This document shows, in pieces, positions 2,892-15,203 of a stretch of DNA of 33,099 nt. The stretch is from Bryobacteraceae bacterium CoA2 C42 (lineage in GTDB: Bacteria; Acidobacteriota; Terriglobia; Bryobacterales; Bryobacteraceae). The notes under the pieces are model-generated. The model saw only the letters and a list, made by a program, of their open reading frames with translations. It did not search any database and had not been told where the DNA came from. The translations under genes and the position numbers were made by a program. Where the stretch lies: assembly GCA_019931245.1 (NCBI GenBank), contig JAINDL010000140.1, positions 1 through 33,099 on the forward strand. The letters run 5' to 3'. Numbering within the stretch: position 1 is the stretch's first letter; every line of letters starts with the position of its first letter.

Positions 2892-4210
2892 CACTTTTCT
2901 TTGGATGCCGACTTCGCCTTGCCGGGTTCGGAGGCGGAGATGACGGGAGGGAAGCCGTTGAACTGGCGCCAGAGTTCGAAGCCGAGGGGGACCTGGTTCA
3001 GGAGCACCCAACCGTTGGCGCGGACCCCTTGGCGGAGATAGTTCTTGGTGGGCCAAGGTTCGTCGTTGGCGTCGTGCTGGACGAGGACGCGGAACTGGCC
3101 GGCGCCGTTATCGGTGGAGTCGACCAACTGCACGTGACCGCCGAAGGTGCCGACGGCGATGGAGGGCCAACCGGCGAACTGGAGGGCGGGCCAGCCTTCG
3201 AACTGGAGGCGGACGGGGCTGCCTTCGCTGATGAGCGGGATGTCATTGCCGTTGATCCAGAGTTCGACGACATCTTTGGTGGTGGAGGGGACGAGGATGG
3301 CGATCTGGGCGCCGGCCTTGAGGAGTTCACCGTTCTGACGGGCGACAACGCGGAAGATTTTGCCGTCGACGGGGGCCATGACGCGCTGGGTGTTCTGGCG
3401 GGCGAGGCGAACTTCAACCTTGGTGACTTCGGCGCGGGCTTTGGCGACGTCCGATTCGGCCGAGGCGTGGGCGCCCCAGGCCTCTTCGATGCGGGAGCCG
3501 GCGTCGGCGTCGGTGCGAAGCAGTTCGCTGTCGAGGGAGAGCTTCTCGCTCTTGGCGGCGTTCAGCGAGGCGGTGGCGCGTTCGACATCGGCCACCTTCT
3601 GGGTGTAATCGAGTTCGGCGAGTTCGACGTTACGGGTGGAGGTGAGGCCTTTTTTGGCGAGGCCGGCCTGGCGCTCCTGCTGCATTTTTGCGGTGATGAG
3701 GGCGGCTTTGGCCGCCTCGAGGGACTGCTGGGCGGCGGCGATGCGATCGATCGACATCTGGACGCGGGCTTTGGCGGCGGAGACGGCAGTCTTCTGGGTG
3801 AGTTCGAGGGCGCGGATGCGGTCTTCGATGGTTTTGACCCGGCGAACGGCGGCCTCTTCGGTACGGCGCATCTGATCGAGTTCCTGGGTGAGGCGCTCAA
3901 TCAGGGAGGGATCGTTGTCTGTCAAGTCGACAATGGGATCGCCTTTCTTCACATCGGAGCCTTCGACGACGTGCCAGCGGGCGATGCGGCCGTCGATGGG
4001 GGCTTCGATGTTCTGCTGCCGCTCTTCCGGGGAGAAGGCGACGACGCGGCCGGAGCCGGGGATGTTCTGCTGCCAGGGGGTGATGGTGAGGGCGAGGGCG
4101 AGGACGATCATGAGGGCGACGAGCACGCGGGCCAGCACGCGGTTGGCGCGGGGGACCTGAATGGCGTGCAGGGCGGCGAAGGCGGGAAGAGAGTGGGAGG
4201 AGTTGCTCAT
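2891..4210 (-). CDS. HlyD-family periplasmic adaptor (membrane fusion protein)
   Basis: This 439-residue protein links an inner-membrane exporter to an outer-membrane channel. It has one membrane anchor near residues 28-48 and a first biotinyl-lipoyl half (IEAPIDGRIARWHVVEGS, about 68-98). A long Ala/Glu/Lys-rich coiled coil spans about 105-285. The second lipoyl half (MAPVDGKIFRVVARQNGELL) and a beta-barrel domain follow. The ATG at 4210 overlaps the ABC gene stop by 4 bases, and its own TGA shares a base with the TolC-family ATG. The family is clear. The cargo is not indicated by the sequence. Confidence 0.92.
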   Translation of the reverse strand: MSNSSHSLPAFAALHAIQVPRANRVLARVLVALMIVLALALTITPWQQNIPGSGRVVAFSPEERQQNIEAPIDGRIARWHVVEGSDVKKGDPIVDLTDNDPSLIERLTQELDQMRRTEEAAVRRVKTIEDRIRALELTQKTAVSAAKARVQMSIDRIAAAQQSLEAAKAALITAKMQQERQAGLAKKGLTSTRNVELAELDYTQKVADVERATASLNAAKSEKLSLDSELLRTDADAGSRIEEAWGAHASAESDVAKARAEVTKVEVRLARQNTQRVMAPVDGKIFRVVARQNGELLKAGAQIAILVPSTTKDVVELWINGNDIPLISEGSPVRLQFEGWPALQFAGWPSIAVGTFGGHVQLVDSTDNGAGQFRVLVQHDANDEPWPTKNYLRQGVRANGWVLLNQVPLGFELWRQFNGFPPVISASEPGKAKSASKEK

Positions 4211-6156
4211 CGATGCACCTCAAGGAGATTGGAGTCGCGGAGGTCGCCGTTTTCGAGGACGGCGAGGCGGTTGCAGCGAGACAGCAGATCGGGACGCTCG
4301 GTGATGCAGATGAGCGTCCAGGGGGCGGCGTGATCAAAGAGAACGTTGCAGATCTCTTCGCGTTCCTGGACGCGGTCGATCTGATCGAGGGCGTCATCGA
4401 GGATGAGGAGCCGGGGCCGGGTGGCGATGGCGCGGGCGATCATCAGGCGGCAGGCTTGGACGCGGGACAGGGGGCGGCCGCTCGGGTGGAGTTCGGTATT
4501 CATGCCCTGGGGCAGGAGTTGCACCTCGTCGAGGAGGCCGACGCGGTCGAGCAGGTGGCGGGCTTCCTCGTGGGAGAGCGCCAGGCCCATGCGCAGGTTG
4601 TCGAGGAGGGTGCCGGGGAAGATTTCGATGTCGCGGACGAGGGAGACGCGGCTGCGCAGCTCGGTCAGCGGGACGTCTCGAAGATCGGCGTTGTTCATGG
4701 TGATGACGCCGGCATCGGGTTCGCGGAGTCCGTAGAGGAGGTCGGCGAGGGTGGACTTGCCGCTGCCATTGTGGCCCATCAGACCCAAGCGCTCGCCGGG
4801 CGCCAGTTGAAAACTGCTTACCGAAAGATGCTTGTAGCGCATCTGGCGGAAATTCAAGCCGACCGGGCCATCGCCGGGGATATGGGCTTCGCCGCCTTCG
4901 CGCTCGAGAGGCAGATCGACGATGTTCCCGAGTTTGTCGAGGCCGGCCAGGAGATCGTAGTAGGTTTCGAGGTGTTTGCCAAACTTGGTAAAGCCGCTGA
5001 CCATGAGGCTGACGACGAGTTCCGCGGCGACGAGCTGGCCGAGGGTGAGTTGCCGGTCGATGACGAGGTAGCCGCCGATACCAAGGAGAATAGCGCTCGC
5101 TAGGGCCTGCAGGGTAAAGGAGCCGATAATCTGGCGGAGCAGGATGGAGAAGTGCTTCTTGCGGTATTCAAGATAGTGTTCGAGATGGTGCAGGGACTGT
5201 TCGGCGGCGAAGGAGGCGCCGGCGGGAGATTTGAAAGCGATAAGATGGGCCGAGATCTGCTCGAGCCAAGCCTCCATGGCGAATTTAGCCTTGGACTCTT
5301 TGATGGCGGTGGGGACGGCCCCGCGGCCGAGGCCAAAGATAATGAACAGCATGGCGACGATCAACAAGATGTCGAAGGCGAGGAGCAGGGGGTGGTAGAG
5401 CGCCACGAGCACCATGCCGATGACGGTCTGCATGAGGATGGTCAGGCCGTCGATGAGCAGCGTAGCGGCAGCTTTCTGGACGGTGACCACGTCGAAGAAG
5501 CGGTTAACCAGTTCAGGACCGTGGTAGCGATCGAAGGCTTTGGCTTCGACGTGAAGGAGACGGTGGGTGAAGTCCTGCGAGACGCGGGCGAAGACGCTGC
5601 GCTGCAGGAGTTCGATGACGTAGAAGCGGAGCGCGTTGAGGATGGTGGCGAACCCAAGGGCGAGAAAGACGAAGACGGTGAGGACGACGATGGGTTGGAG
5701 GACAGAACCGAAAGCAACCGTGTTGACCAGCGACTGGACGGCGATGGGAACGACCAGAGAAAGCAGGCCAATAACAACCGAATAGATGACGGCCACCCAG
5801 AGGGTGGTTCTTTCGCCGGCGAGGAGGGCGCGAAGGCGCTGGTAGGGAGTTTCTTTAAAGCGAAGCTCTTCGAGGGGAGCGATGGGTATGGGAATGCGCC
5901 AGTCGACCTCTGCCGCGACGTTGGGCACTCCCAAGACTTCGAGGAGGGCTTCGACGGTAATCCACTTCTCGCGGCCACCGCCATCGCCGAACCGGACGCG
6001 CACGCGCCCGCGCTTCTTCTCAAAGACCGTAATCATCTCGTGGTCGCCGGCGCAGGGGGCCATCCACGGGGATGAGGGATCCACTTCCCGGAGAACCGCT
6101 CGCAAGGCCCGCCGCACCGGCATGGTAGATTGCTCGGAGGTAAATGAAGCCTGCAT
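4207..6156 (-). CDS. ABC exporter, fused membrane and ATPase domains, atypical ATPase motifs
   Basis: This 649-residue half-transporter should power export through the adjacent adaptor and channel. After about 110 N-terminal residues without a C39 peptidase Cys-His signature come roughly six membrane segments (about 117-390) and a nucleotide-binding domain. Walker A is intact (GHNGSGKST, 461-469). The signature is LSRVQ in place of LSGGQ (about 563), Walker B ends LILDD in place of LILDE (about 584-588), the Q-loop glutamine is missing (SLVRDIEIF) and the H-loop His is Glu (ITER, about 620). ATG at 6156 has AGG just upstream. The frame opens at 6183, but that ATG lies inside a palindrome; 6123 is another candidate. 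The missing residues may be a subfamily trait and not decay. Confidence 0.88.
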   Translation of the reverse strand: MQASFTSEQSTMPVRRALRAVLREVDPSSPWMAPCAGDHEMITVFEKKRGRVRVRFGDGGGREKWITVEALLEVLGVPNVAAEVDWRIPIPIAPLEELRFKETPYQRLRALLAGERTTLWVAVIYSVVIGLLSLVVPIAVQSLVNTVAFGSVLQPIVVLTVFVFLALGFATILNALRFYVIELLQRSVFARVSQDFTHRLLHVEAKAFDRYHGPELVNRFFDVVTVQKAAATLLIDGLTILMQTVIGMVLVALYHPLLLAFDILLIVAMLFIIFGLGRGAVPTAIKESKAKFAMEAWLEQISAHLIAFKSPAGASFAAEQSLHHLEHYLEYRKKHFSILLRQIIGSFTLQALASAILLGIGGYLVIDRQLTLGQLVAAELVVSLMVSGFTKFGKHLETYYDLLAGLDKLGNIVDLPLEREGGEAHIPGDGPVGLNFRQMRYKHLSVSSFQLAPGERLGLMGHNGSGKSTLADLLYGLREPDAGVITMNNADLRDVPLTELRSRVSLVRDIEIFPGTLLDNLRMGLALSHEEARHLLDRVGLLDEVQLLPQGMNTELHPSGRPLSRVQACRLMIARAIATRPRLLILDDALDQIDRVQEREEICNVLFDHAAPWTLICITERPDLLSRCNRLAVLENGDLRDSNLLEVHR

Positions 6157-11626: not shown

Positions 11627-12130
11627 TTAGTTGGTAAGGGGTGGAGCGCCGAGGGCGAGCCGCTCGAGCGCTTCGCCGGTCAGATCGTAGTAGAGGCGGC
11701 CGGATTCGCGGGTGGCGCCGAGGCGCTGATAGAACTGAATGGCCGGGGAGTTCCAGTCGAGGACGCTCCAGTGGAGAGCCCCGTAGTGGTGTTGGCGGGC
11801 GTAGCCGGCGGCAAAGGCCATCATCAATTTCCCAAGTCCCTGCCCCCGGCTGCGGGCGCGCACGAAGACGTCCTCGACGTAGATGACGGGAGTGCCGCTG
11901 TAGCTGGAAAAGCGATGCTGAAGCATGAGATAGGCGACCGGTTCGCCGTCCCAGAAGCCGAGGAAGACTTCGGCGATGGCCTTGGCGCCGAAGACGTAGC
12001 GTTCGAGGGCGGCGGGGGAAATGGAGACCGACTCGGCTTTTCGCTCGGCGGTGGCCATCTCGCGAATCATTTGGAGGACAAGGTCCGTGTCGGCGGAGGT
12101 GGCGCGGCGGACGGTTAAGAGATCTGCCAT
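11627..12130 (-). CDS. GNAT-family N-acetyltransferase
   Basis: This 167-residue protein has the single GNAT fold. Motif A is clear: YVEDVFVRARSRGQGLGKLMM holds the acetyl-CoA pyrophosphate-binding RGQGLG. The late LDWNSPAIQFYQRLGA is the typical motif B with a tyrosine in the active-site region. The arrangement resembles polyamine (SSAT-like) acetyltransferases, but the acceptor cannot be assigned. GAGG lies 5 bases before the ATG at 12130. It is divergent from the hybrid kinase gene. Confidence 0.9.
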   Translation of the reverse strand: MADLLTVRRATSADTDLVLQMIREMATAERKAESVSISPAALERYVFGAKAIAEVFLGFWDGEPVAYLMLQHRFSSYSGTPVIYVEDVFVRARSRGQGLGKLMMAFAAGYARQHHYGALHWSVLDWNSPAIQFYQRLGATRESGRLYYDLTGEALERLALGAPPLTN

Positions 12131-12250
12131 AGATACCTCTTCAGAGTACTATGCAGGACCATTACTTTTTTAACAGTTCCTTAGGTGAAAGATACTAGGC
12201 AAGTGTTGCAGGGTACCCTGGGTCCCCGATACTATAAGTCTGTTCCTTCC

Positions 12251-14380
12251 ATGATTCTTCTCCGCTCCGTGGTCCTTAACGCTGTGATTGTTTTCGCGGC
12301 GTCTGCAGCGAGATTGGTTGCTGCTCCCTCCGGTAATGCGTTTCCCGTCGTGGTTCCGCCGTGGGTAGTCGTTTTCTTCCTGCTGATCATTTCGGCCGCG
12401 GGTGGTTGCCTGTGGCAAGTACTGAACACGATGCGCCGTCCGGGCCGGTCCAGCCGAACGGCGGGGCTGCCGGCGGAAGATACCCTGAATGCGGTGATTG
12501 TGCGCGAAAGTTCGGATGCGCTGTTCACGATTAACGCCGCGGGATTGATTCAGAGTTTGAATCCGGCGGCGCGGCAGCAGTTCGGGTACACGATCGAAGA
12601 GATTCGGGACAAGAGTATTTCGGCTCTGATTCCGCCCCCGGCGCGAGGCCGTCAACGCGCAAACTACATGGCCAATCCGGGGACGCGGGAGTTGTTTGGG
12701 GTCCGGCGGGATGGCAGCCGTTTTCCGATTGACGTCAAGCTGGATGAACTGACGTTTGCCAACGGGAGCCTGATGGCCGTCTCGGTGCGGGATGTTTCGG
12801 CGCGGTATGCGGCCGAGCGGGAGGTGGAGCGGCGGCTGGCGGCGAGCGAGGCGATTGTGCACCAGACAGGAGCACCGCTCTTTGTGCTGTCGCGGGACGG
12901 GAAGATTGAGCGCATGAACCGGGCGAGCGAGATGCTGCTGGACTTTTCCTCCGGCGAGGTGAAGGGCCAGGCGATTTGGGAGATTGTGGCGATGCCCGAG
13001 CGCGCCGAGGAGTTGCAGAGTCAGATGGAGGGTCTGCTGCGGGGAACTTTCCCGGCCAGGTCCGAGATGGTGTTTACGGCGCGCGATGGCCGCGAGTACA
13101 CGATGAGCTGCGTGTTTACGGCGACGCTGGACGAGTTCGGAGTGATTGAGACGGTGATTCTCACGGCGCACGATATCAGTTCGCGGAAGGCCCTTGAGTC
13201 GTCGCATCTGCGCACGGAGCGGTTGGCGGCGGTGAGCCGGCTGGCAGGGGGAGTGGCGCATGATTTCAACAACCTGTTGACGGCCATCACCGGCTATAGC
13301 GGCATGGCGCTGCAGAATCTGGACTCCGGAAATCCGATCCGGAAGGATCTCGAGCAGATCAAGCGAGCGGGCGACCGGGGGGCGGCGATCACGCGGCAGT
13401 TGCTGGCGCTCAGCGGAAGGCATCCCCGGCAGCCGCGGCTGCTGCATCTGCACGATAGCGTGAAGAGCGCGGAGCGGATGCTGCGGGTGCTGGCGGGGGA
13501 GGCGATCCATTTGGAGATCCATACCGATCCGGCGCTGCCGCGTATCGAGGCGGATGCGGCGCAGGTGGAGGAGGTTCTGCTGCACCTGGCGGCCTTCCTT
13601 TGCGAGAGGATGTCGAAGGGAGGGCGGCTGACGATCCGGACGCAACCCGAGCGATTAGAGCGGGACAATTGCGACAGTGAGCCGCCAGTGCGGGCCGGGG
13701 AGTATGCGTCAGTGACCTTATCGGACACAAGCCAGCCCTTGAGCCGGGAGGCGGTCGCCCATCTGTTTGAACCGTTCTTCCCGGCCAGGGAGACGCTGCG
13801 GTCGAATGGCTTGGGGCTGGCGATGGTGGCCGGTTTGGTTAAGCAGAATGGTGGAGCGATTCTGGTTACCGCCAAGCCGGGCGGGGGCAACGTGATTTGC
13901 GTCTACTGGCCGAAGGGGGCGGCTCAGACGCTGGTGGCGGGCGAACGGCCGGGGCCGCTATTTATGGTACCCAAGCCGGTCGTGCTGGAGGGGACGGAAA
14001 CCATCCTGGTCGCCATGGCCAACGCCGAAGAGCGGGCGCGGGTTCGGGCGATGCTCGTGCCGGCGGGTTACACGGTGATCGCAGCGCGCAGCGGCCTGCA
14101 AGCGCTCGAGATGGCGCACAAGCAGGAAGGGACGCTGCACGCGGTGGTGACCGACATCACCCTGCCGGGCATGTCGGGCGCGGATTTGATCATGGCGATC
14201 CGCCATGCGCAGCCGGGGGTGAGGTCCATCTACGTGACCAGCCGGCCGTCGGTGGAGATTCTGGAGCAGGGACTGAGCCTAGGCAGCGTGATGAGCCTGC
14301 AGGAGACTACGGAGCCGCGGGAGTTACTCGAGAGAGTGCGCGCGGCACTGACGAACCGGTCGATGAGCGTGGGACGTTAA
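12251..14380 (+). CDS. PAS-containing hybrid histidine kinase with degenerate ATPase and receiver motifs
   Basis: The 709-residue protein has two N-terminal membrane segments (about 5-25 and 34-55), two PAS domains (about 78-193 and 196-313), a HisKA dimerisation domain, a HATPase domain and a receiver. The phospho-acceptor His337 is intact (VAHDFNNLL). The N-box normally reads LLNLxxNARDAM; here it reads LLHLAAFLCERM. The G1 box is DTSQP in place of DTGxG, while G2 remains (SNGLGL). In the receiver the acidic pair is AM (588-589) and the conserved Lys is Glu (about 685), while Asp635 (VVTDITLPGMSG) remains. It may be a pseudokinase or scaffold. The frame opens at a GTG at 12185 without a ribosome site; 12251 gives a clean membrane start. 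Confidence 0.85.
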   Translation: MILLRSVVLNAVIVFAASAARLVAAPSGNAFPVVVPPWVVVFFLLIISAAGGCLWQVLNTMRRPGRSSRTAGLPAEDTLNAVIVRESSDALFTINAAGLIQSLNPAARQQFGYTIEEIRDKSISALIPPPARGRQRANYMANPGTRELFGVRRDGSRFPIDVKLDELTFANGSLMAVSVRDVSARYAAEREVERRLAASEAIVHQTGAPLFVLSRDGKIERMNRASEMLLDFSSGEVKGQAIWEIVAMPERAEELQSQMEGLLRGTFPARSEMVFTARDGREYTMSCVFTATLDEFGVIETVILTAHDISSRKALESSHLRTERLAAVSRLAGGVAHDFNNLLTAITGYSGMALQNLDSGNPIRKDLEQIKRAGDRGAAITRQLLALSGRHPRQPRLLHLHDSVKSAERMLRVLAGEAIHLEIHTDPALPRIEADAAQVEEVLLHLAAFLCERMSKGGRLTIRTQPERLERDNCDSEPPVRAGEYASVTLSDTSQPLSREAVAHLFEPFFPARETLRSNGLGLAMVAGLVKQNGGAILVTAKPGGGNVICVYWPKGAAQTLVAGERPGPLFMVPKPVVLEGTETILVAMANAEERARVRAMLVPAGYTVIAARSGLQALEMAHKQEGTLHAVVTDITLPGMSGADLIMAIRHAQPGVRSIYVTSRPSVEILEQGLSLGSVMSLQETTEPRELLERVRAALTNRSMSVGR

Positions 14381-14411
14381 CGGCCCCTTCCCGATGGTTA
14401 CGCGCAAGGGA

Positions 14412-15203
14412 TCAGCGGTTTGACTGGACCGCAGTTTTCAACCGGAAGCCGACGTAGAGCGTGCTGATTTCGGTGCTGAGGCTCTTGAACAGCAGCACTT
14501 TAGCGGCGAACTTTACCTGGGAGCCCCGGGTGAAATACAGGCCTTCGGTCGAGCGGGCCCGGCGGAGGGCAAAACGGGTTCCTTTGTCGACGCGGCCCAG
14601 GATTCCAAAGCCCAGACTGATCGTATCGAACACTTCCGCTTCGACCCGGACGAGGTCTTTATCGGCCTGATCGATCCAGACCTTGCCGCGCACCTTTTCA
14701 AACAGACGGGCGCGGAGGCTTGGAGGCTTATAGCCAGGCCGCGGCTCGCAGGCAAGTACCCATAGCTTCCGGCCGTCCTGGGTATCTTCTCCCACCAGAC
14801 GGTAGTCGAGCGCCTCGGGGAACTCGCGGATGAGGTCTTCGGTTTCGCGGCCCATGATGCTGGTGGACCCCGCTTTGCCGACCTTGGCTTCGGCGAGGCG
14901 CCGGCGAATCGAATCCTCCTGACGGCTAGACTCGGCTTGGCTGAGGGGGCGTCCATTGCGGGAGATGACGCGCAGAATCCAGACGCCATCCACGCGTTCG
15001 GGCCGGGTGAGGGTGACGGTCTCGAGTTTGAGCCGGCCATCGGATTCAAACTCCTTGCGGGTAATCACCCGATCAAACGAGTAATCAGCGAGCCGGAGGT
15101 CACTTTCGAGCATCCGATCGAGCGAAGTCCGCAGGACCGGACGCCAGTCGAGCGGTTGCGCCCAAAGGGGTCCAGTCAAATACAACAAGACAAGAACGCG
15201 CAT
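14412..15203 (-). CDS. Exported hypothetical protein, possibly LolA-like
   Basis: I do not recognise a named family with certainty. The 263-residue protein has a signal peptide (MRVLVLLYLTGPLWAQ, cleavage near AQ-PL). The mature part alternates short beta strands with charged turns, including GKVWIDQADKDLVRVEAEV, which recalls the strand pairs of LolA/outer-membrane lipoprotein sorting folds. The early segment has an ESDGRLK turn and NGRPLSQAE. GAAGAG lies about 6 bases before the ATG. It is convergent with the hybrid kinase and divergent from the EamA transporter, so it is a single-gene unit. A periplasmic location is likely; function unknown. Confidence 0.75.
   Translation of the reverse strand: MRVLVLLYLTGPLWAQPLDWRPVLRTSLDRMLESDLRLADYSFDRVITRKEFESDGRLKLETVTLTRPERVDGVWILRVISRNGRPLSQAESSRQEDSIRRRLAEAKVGKAGSTSIMGRETEDLIREFPEALDYRLVGEDTQDGRKLWVLACEPRPGYKPPSLRARLFEKVRGKVWIDQADKDLVRVEAEVFDTISLGFGILGRVDKGTRFALRRARSTEGLYFTRGSQVKFAAKVLLFKSLSTEISTLYVGFRLKTAVQSNR

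Follow-up and report, generated by a model that had tools for sequence, protein, structure and literature searches.

A candidate pseudo-histidine kinase with a C-terminal pseudo-receiver, apparently maintained by selection in the Bryobacteraceae

Pseudo-histidine kinases and pseudo-receivers are already known (PMC12632262). RetS of Pseudomonas aeruginosa is described as having a degenerate HATPase with a retained HExxT motif and as dephosphorylating the receiver of GacS (PMC5992135), and it also blocks GacS autophosphorylation and accepts phosphate on its REC2 domain (PMC5992135; reviewed in PMC12189002). DivL of Caulobacter, as portrayed in PMC4211667, is devoid of both kinase and phosphatase activity and detects a phosphorylated regulator, its specificity being set by the PAS domains. 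HisKA proteins carry an H-E/D-x-x-T/N motif, and in the kinases tested in PMC3510030 phosphatase activity depends on the T/N residue and kinase activity on the acid, each residue being dispensable for the other activity. A pseudo-receiver is defined in PMC12632262 as a receiver lacking at least one of the residues DD, D, T, and K; according to the same source, substitutions at DD, T, or K do not necessarily prevent phosphorylation. Among the literature matches listed (titles and abstract openings, with few subscription papers) on pseudo-histidine kinases and degenerate HATPases, hybrid kinases of Acidobacteria/Acidobacteriota, pseudo-receivers, and related themes, the family presented here is undescribed, and we met no precedent among them for a hybrid kinase with both halves degenerate, fixed in a clade and with the intermediates alive in relatives.

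The window analyzed here, a stretch of 33,099 nucleotides, is the complete contig 214 of a 6.07-Mb draft genome (97.7% complete). It holds an uninterrupted frame on the + strand from the ATG at 12251 to a stop codon ending at 14380 (709 codons plus stop), as the preliminary description of this DNA had stated; an alternative in-frame GTG at 12185 would give 731 codons. The 709-residue product has the layout PAS-PAS-HisKA-HATPase-receiver, and all of its features below are given in + strand coordinates. A signal-peptide-like N-terminal stretch (residues 1 to 26) and a transmembrane stretch (about residues 36 to 57) lie at 12251 to 12421, as judged from hydropathy and from orthologue N termini compared by eye, and a periplasmic part is almost absent by hydropathy. 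PAS1 (residues 75 to 195; 12473 to 12835), FixL-like in sequence, was placed by sequence- and structure-database matches and alignment, and PAS2 (residues 196 to 313; 12836 to 13189) by Pfam, which found PAS in two stretches. These are followed by the HisKA/DHp domain (residues 314 to 395; 13190 to 13435), which is the most conserved, the HATPase_c domain (residues 396 to 558; 13436 to 13924), and the receiver domain (residues 583 to 702; 13997 to 14356). Like PAS, all three exceed the Pfam gathering cutoffs (HisKA, 34.5 bits against 26.9; HATPase_c, 35.0 against 26.4; Response_reg, 45.7 against 30.2), but their scores are low compared with those of another, intact hybrid kinase encoded in this genome (78.7, 107.8, and 112.1, respectively). 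In FixL, the best match of PAS1, a histidine in the PAS helix is the haem ligand. Haem sensing by PAS1 was considered on account of this match and ruled out, as the histidine is missing: the segment aligned to the RSRH... of FixL is shorter and reads RGRQRANY, and the residue at the His position varies among family members.

Orthologues were found at an E value of ≤1e-95 in 21 of 237 family genomes, its own included, namely, in 18 of the 19 genomes of the genus and in G030, G177, and G126; the one genus genome with no match (G008) is 62% complete. Named near relatives of the gene lie in acidobacterial metagenome genomes (JADCJL010000287.1, JAPKZB010000014.1 [LacPavin], and CANNLB010000298.1). 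The frame is full length in 19 of the 21 members; in the draft of G001 the copy is split in frame, and the G002 copy is cut by a contig end and enters the H-box, N-box, and G1 counts only. In the orthologue tree, whose main forks are supported by 100/99 or better and many of whose outgroup branches are long, G126 is outermost, G030 and G177 together branch next, and the genus then splits into clade A (nine copies, including that of the window) and clade B (nine copies). Invariant positions across clades A and B amount to 37 of 82 in HisKA, 32 of 163 in the HATPase, 26 of 120 in the receiver, 29 of 121 in PAS1, and 17 of 118 in PAS2.

Catalytic residues were judged by alignment with 11 canonical relatives (one locus each from 11 other genomes), which carry the canonical residue at each counted site (Ser or Thr at the T site). 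Kept in the window protein are H337, D338, N341, D492, the G2 glycines, D635, and T663, and the HATPase also retains FEPFF. The phospho-acceptor His and the H-D/E-x-x-N/T motif are found as H337-D338-F-N-N341 (13259 to 13273); N341 is present in 21 of 21 members and H337 and D338 in 20 of 21 each, both being invariant in clade A (9/9 each), and the surrounding block AHDFNNLLTAITGYSG is nearly fixed, with the Phe for D338 in G002 as the single exception. In the N box, LLHLAAFLCERM (13577 to 13612), both Asn residues are replaced, by H445 and F449. The latter residue occurs in 9/9 copies of clade A, against Asn in 9/9 of clade B, and the Asn at this position normally holds the metal in histidine kinases. 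The G1 box (13724 to 13738) reads DTSQP, in which D492 is kept and the two glycines have become S494 (9/9 in clade A) and P496 (still Gly in 6/9), whereas the G2 box, NGLGL (13805 to 13819), keeps its glycines; D492 and the G2 glycines are invariant across clade A. The protein thus has the losses of ATP/Mg-binding residues by which a pseudo-histidine kinase is recognized, with both N-box Asn residues and both G1 glycines replaced, and most likely lacks autophosphorylation, because Phe has taken the place of the metal-binding Asn and G1 is without its glycines. That these replacements arose by chance or from sequencing error is very unlikely, since H445, F449, and S494 recur in eight other copies, although P496, A590, and E685 are common to fewer.

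These results bear out several particulars of the preliminary description, namely, the kept His337 and Asp635, the missing N-box Asn residues (now placed at His445 and Phe449), the DTSQP reading of the G1 box, and the Glu at the receiver Lys position (E685). Its picture of an eroded ATP-binding domain stands for the N box and G1. Elsewhere in the domain, however, Asp492, FEPFF, and the glycines of G2 remain, so that the site is lost partly rather than wholly, and some nucleotide may still be bound because D492 and the G2 glycines are kept. In a predicted model of the HATPase alone (pLDDT, 79.8; pTM, 0.80), the domain adopts a GHKL-type fold, with model residues 114 to 124 in the lid region below 50; this is the best of five models, whose mean pLDDT ranged from 79.8 down to 40.9, and only the overall fold was used. 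Among structures, it matches best that of CckA bound to c-di-GMP/AMPPNP (Z, 20.8; 159 residues; RMSD, 2.4), followed by DivL, with RetS one of many others. Foldseek and VIA matches do not single out pseudokinases, active kinases scoring equally high, and the model shows no more than that a GHKL fold is predicted to be retained. A model of the DHp-HATPase-receiver portion was discarded (mean pLDDT, 43.1).

The receiver is similarly depleted, with three of the five active-site residues lost in the window. Its acidic pair is replaced by M589-A590 (14015 to 14020); the alignment gives Met589-Ala590, one residue away from the A588-M589 (AM) of the preliminary description. The first acid is gone, and its position hydrophobic, in 17/17 readable copies of clades A and B, and the second is gone in 3/17, the window included. 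The Lys is replaced by E685 (14303 to 14305), no Lys being present in any of the 17 readable genus copies, and Arg stands there in 6/8 of clade B. In contrast to these losses, D635 (14153 to 14155) and a Thr or Ser at 663 (T663 in the window) are kept in 17/17. With both DD acids and the Lys gone, the domain falls within the definition of a pseudo-receiver as worded in PMC12632262.

The distribution of the losses over the tree is graded. G126 carries every counted catalytic residue and is the only fully canonical orthologue found as well as the most distant one. G030 and G177 have an unchanged N box and G1 but lack the Lys and the second acid of the receiver. The first N-box Asn is His in 9/9 copies of clade A and 6/9 of clade B and Gln in 3/9 of clade B; F449 and S494 are limited to clade A (9/9 each), and the window, G010, and G016 additionally lack the second G1 Gly (P/A496) and the second receiver acid (A590 in the window). 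From these sequences, the tree gives a ladder, from a canonical copy through loss of the receiver and then of the first N-box Asn to loss of the second Asn and G1. CheA carries His at the first N-box position. Clade B, which keeps the second Asn and G1, may for that reason be active. The G030 copy from another genus (G030:C119:65857-67836) has Arg for the phospho-acceptor His with an intact N box and G1, which, as far as its residues indicate, is an independent route to inactivation.

Selection was estimated for each domain as omega (dN/dS) in IQ-TREE with the GY+F3X4 model, with an own tree inferred for each domain set and with eight of the nine copies of each clade (G001, split, and G002, cut, being excluded). 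With synonymous changes near saturation over the deeper pairs, most of all in clade B, omega was 0.059 for PAS1, 0.067 for PAS2, 0.033 for HisKA, 0.064 for the HATPase, and 0.069 for the receiver in clade A (8 copies) and 0.027, 0.050, 0.032, 0.053, and 0.054, respectively, in clade B; the trio of the window, G010, and G016 gave 0.055, 0.055, 0.041, 0.053, and 0.052. As a control, a hybrid kinase that is intact in these genomes gave 0.014 (HisKA), 0.058 (HATPase), and 0.059 (receiver) in clade A; its values in clade B were 0.008, 0.032, and 0.015. A second intact kinase gave 0.022 (HisKA) and 0.060 (HATPase) in clade A. The degenerate domains of clade A are therefore about as constrained as working ones (HATPase and receiver, 0.064 and 0.069, against 0.058 to 0.060 in intact kinases). 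The HisKA value of clade A, 0.033, is 1.5 to 2.4 times those of the controls (0.022 and 0.014), i.e., this domain is somewhat less constrained, and the receiver (0.054) and HATPase (0.053) of clade B are less constrained than those of the control (0.015 and 0.032). One outlier in clade B is the G004-G005 pair, with a receiver omega of 0.336 (bootstrap, 0.107 to 0.856). Canonical close orthologues combined with relaxed selection, which the preliminary description took as the mark of a decaying gene, are not what the family presents: its only fully canonical member is the distant G126, and the losses are common to close orthologues (F449 and S494 in 9/9 of clade A). The selection-kept, noncatalytic role proposed there gains from the shared losses and the low dN/dS, whereas the lost kinase activity that it presupposes is read from residues and is to be taken as probable.

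Between the window and G010, the pairwise omega is 0.139 for the kinase gene (bootstrap, 0.103 to 0.186), 0.161 for its HATPase (0.091 to 0.260), and 0.110 for its receiver (0.053 to 0.216), compared with 0.169 and 0.122 for the two control kinases. Six flanking genes gave 0.000, 0.014, 0.023, 0.045, 0.150, and 0.260, so that the kinase lies above four of the six. The kinase protein is 87% identical to that of G010, against 96 to 100% for eight neighboring genes; part of this lower identity reflects the raised dS at the locus, which is 0.38 against 0.06 to 0.16 in the flanking genes (all six lower) and 0.35 and 0.19 in the control kinases. In 250-base bins over 12251 to 14500, identity to G010 is 79 to 94% over the kinase gene, and the right flank is at 95 to 99%; the left flank also holds a patch of 90 to 92%. 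This local drop looks like mosaic recombination and may be read as mosaic divergence. The drop was set aside as a sign of decay, one control kinase having a similar dS (0.35) and the other a lower one (0.19).

When set against the described systems, the window protein resembles RetS in being a hybrid with a degenerate HATPase (N box and G1 lost) that keeps the phosphatase motif of the H box, here HDFNN (PMC5992135), and the kinase region of RetS (6dk7) matches the predicted CA domain with a Z of 18.8 over 149 residues (RMSD, 2.2), as do many active kinases. It differs in that RetS REC2 works as a phosphate acceptor in that account, whereas the single receiver here has lost DD and K and, judged from its residues, is no counterpart of a phosphate-accepting REC2. 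DivL shares the PAS and HisKA-HATPase arrangement and a conserved kinase-dead state, which for the window protein is predicted (PMC4211667; 4q20, Z of 19.7 over 139 residues; RMSD, 1.8). However, DivL has Tyr in place of the His, whereas the window protein keeps the His (H337 in 9/9 of clade A, with no nonphosphorylatable residue there) and loses the ATP side, and the DivL architecture as described in PMC4211667 has no receiver. Of the named kinases among the matches, CckA comes nearest in both fold and sequence (5idj, E value of 1.7e-32; 5idm, Z of 20.8 over 159 residues; RMSD, 2.4), but it is an active kinase, and the NCBIfam equivalog score of 236 bits is far from its cutoff of 1000; that for EspC of Myxococcus is 106.1 bits against a cutoff of 1200. 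ShkA and CikA are likewise hybrid kinases whose receiver lost active-site residues, but as outlined in PMC12632262 their pseudo-receiver controls autophosphorylation of their own kinase core, whereas the transmitter of the window protein is also degenerate.

We propose, with moderate confidence and from sequence comparison, that the window protein may be a pseudo-histidine kinase that selection maintains, one that carries a pseudo-receiver at its C terminus and acts through its DHp domain on the receiver or kinase of a partner. A regulatory job without the usual enzyme activity is probable because the constraint about equals that of working sensors despite the lost residues. In the proposed mechanism, the transmembrane helix near the N terminus would anchor the protein, the two PAS domains would read a cytoplasmic cue, and their state would set the output of the DHp helix bundle, which would dock on and dephosphorylate the receiver of another hybrid kinase or a response regulator; alternatively, the DHp domain might inhibit a partner kinase in the manner of RetS or, like DivL, only bind its partner as a sensor, and the pseudo-receiver would work by binding rather than phosphorylation. 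By analogy, the protein would act as RetS does when it dephosphorylates or blocks its partner, or else as DivL does; a sink of the REC2 type is disfavored by the degenerate receiver. The domain layout, the losses and their conservation, the purifying selection, and the retained H-D-x-x-N motif are observed, and the kinase inactivity, the phosphatase or docking output, and the existence of a partner are what we infer in this proposal. A phosphatase-only role leaves something unexplained, because D338, the acid needed for kinase activity, is fixed in 9/9 copies of clade A, and phosphorylation in trans keeps its place among the readings for the same reason.

In such a scheme, the ATP domain of another kinase would phosphorylate H337 within a mixed dimer, and the phosphate would then pass to a third protein. 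H337 and D338 are indeed invariant in clade A despite the loss of the protein's own ATP site, but the best-scoring other kinase of its genome is 25% identical over residues 190 to 532, far for a mixed DHp dimer, so that none is an obvious trans partner. The compared genes of the window include no recognized kinase, and inspection by eye of up to 2.2 kb downstream in 18 copies showed none either; we regard the scheme as unlikely. It is distinctly unlikely that the protein is a weak or unusual kinase that binds nucleotide via D492 and the G2 loop with a nonstandard metal site, given that F449 stands in place of the metal-holding Asn in all of clade A and that both G1 glycines are gone in the window, even though no clade A copy departs from D492 or the G2 glycines, the GHKL fold is predicted to be kept with nucleotide-bound CckA structures as its best matches, and clade B, with its second Asn and G1, may well be active.

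Slow decay of the gene would agree with the extra losses of the window lineage, in which more residues are missing from the trio (P/A496 and A590) than from its sister copies, the pattern expected if erosion went on slowly, with the identity to G010 below that of the eight neighbors, with an omega above that of four of six flanking genes, and with the in-frame split of the G001 copy. Yet omega is near that of intact kinases, the dS of 0.38 explains part of the lower identity (with 0.35 and 0.19 in control kinases elsewhere), the frame is full length in 19 of 21 members, and the blocks upstream are conserved, which makes decay very improbable. Besides phosphorylation in trans and conformational signaling from ligand-sensing PAS domains, both of them hypothetical, the preliminary description had offered a phosphate sink, in which D635 would drain phosphate from other kinases. 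D635 and the Thr or Ser at 663 are kept in every readable genus copy, and a receiver altered at DD, T, or K may still be phosphorylated (PMC12632262), but the sink is disfavored because the window receiver lacks both Mg-site acids and the Lys (the Lys and the first acid being gone in 17/17), and we consider it highly improbable. Under the preferred reading of a maintained pseudo-histidine kinase, living relatives retain a stepwise path from an ordinary hybrid kinase to a doubly inactive form under strong selection, and the ladder of losses is a natural series for testing what the histidine kinase fold does without kinase chemistry. It is also a caution for genome annotation, as such genes are not to be tallied as working two-component kinases.

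A second hybrid protein is encoded in the same genome on contig 199 of G000 (3249 to 4682, − strand; 478 amino acids from stop to stop). It has an HEANN box, an HATPase that is unrecognizable (Pfam finds only Response_reg), and a receiver that retains DD and D. At an E value of ≤1e-40, 17 of the 19 genus genomes have it, four of the listed matches containing internal stop codons, and 7 of 20 other family genomes have a match at ≤1e-25; of the eight match places listed outside the genus, seven are confined to the receiver part and that in G028 (150 to 473) is longer. The H-E-x-N-N box and the receiver DD and D are found in 12 of 12 aligned loci, and the Lys was read in the genome of the window only. 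The two proteins, both with H-[DE]-x-N-N and neither with a usable ATP domain, might form a kinase-free couple handling the phosphate of others, in which the PAS-gated DHp of the window protein would set phosphorylation of the intact receiver of the contig-199 protein; this is a long shot, and any link between the two is speculation.

No linked partner gene was found beside the kinase gene, the downstream genes, viewed by eye over up to 2.2 kb in 18 copies (five of them shorter), differing between the clades. At the site corresponding to 14381 to 14411 of the window, a gene of about 403 amino acids lies on the − strand in G016, G017, G009, G012, and G001, but neither the window nor G010 has it; by eye, it looks like a class V aminotransferase, with nothing pointing to signaling. 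The sole neighbor retained through both clades is a GNAT enzyme, whose divergent gene (11627 to 12130, − strand; Acetyltransf_1, 60.9 bits) adjoins the kinase gene in 16 of 20 orthologue regions (8/8 of the other clade A regions, 8/9 of clade B, where the G014 contig starts too close to the kinase to show it, and 0/3 outside the genus). This shared neighbor makes the genus copies positional orthologues as well. Beyond the GNAT gene, the eight clade A regions have an SDR-like gene (identified by eye) that none of the clade B regions shows, several clade B contigs being short. The divergent intergenic region (12131 to 12250) was aligned in 18 copies, with G014 misaligned there owing to its contig start, and contains the conserved blocks AGTAC (12145 to 12149), TTACTTT (12162 to 12168), TTGC (12206 to 12209), and TACTAT (12230 to 12235), which persist through both clades, the series closing with TTGC and, immediately before the start of the kinase gene, a hexamer resembling TACTAT/TAGCAT. 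A consensus promoter scan of the kinase upstream region found none above threshold; going by their conservation, the TTGC and TACTAT blocks (hexamers 18 bases apart) look like the kinase promoter, which would favor the ATG at 12251. Across the genus, the upstream region common to the divergent GNAT and kinase genes is compact and carries conserved blocks.
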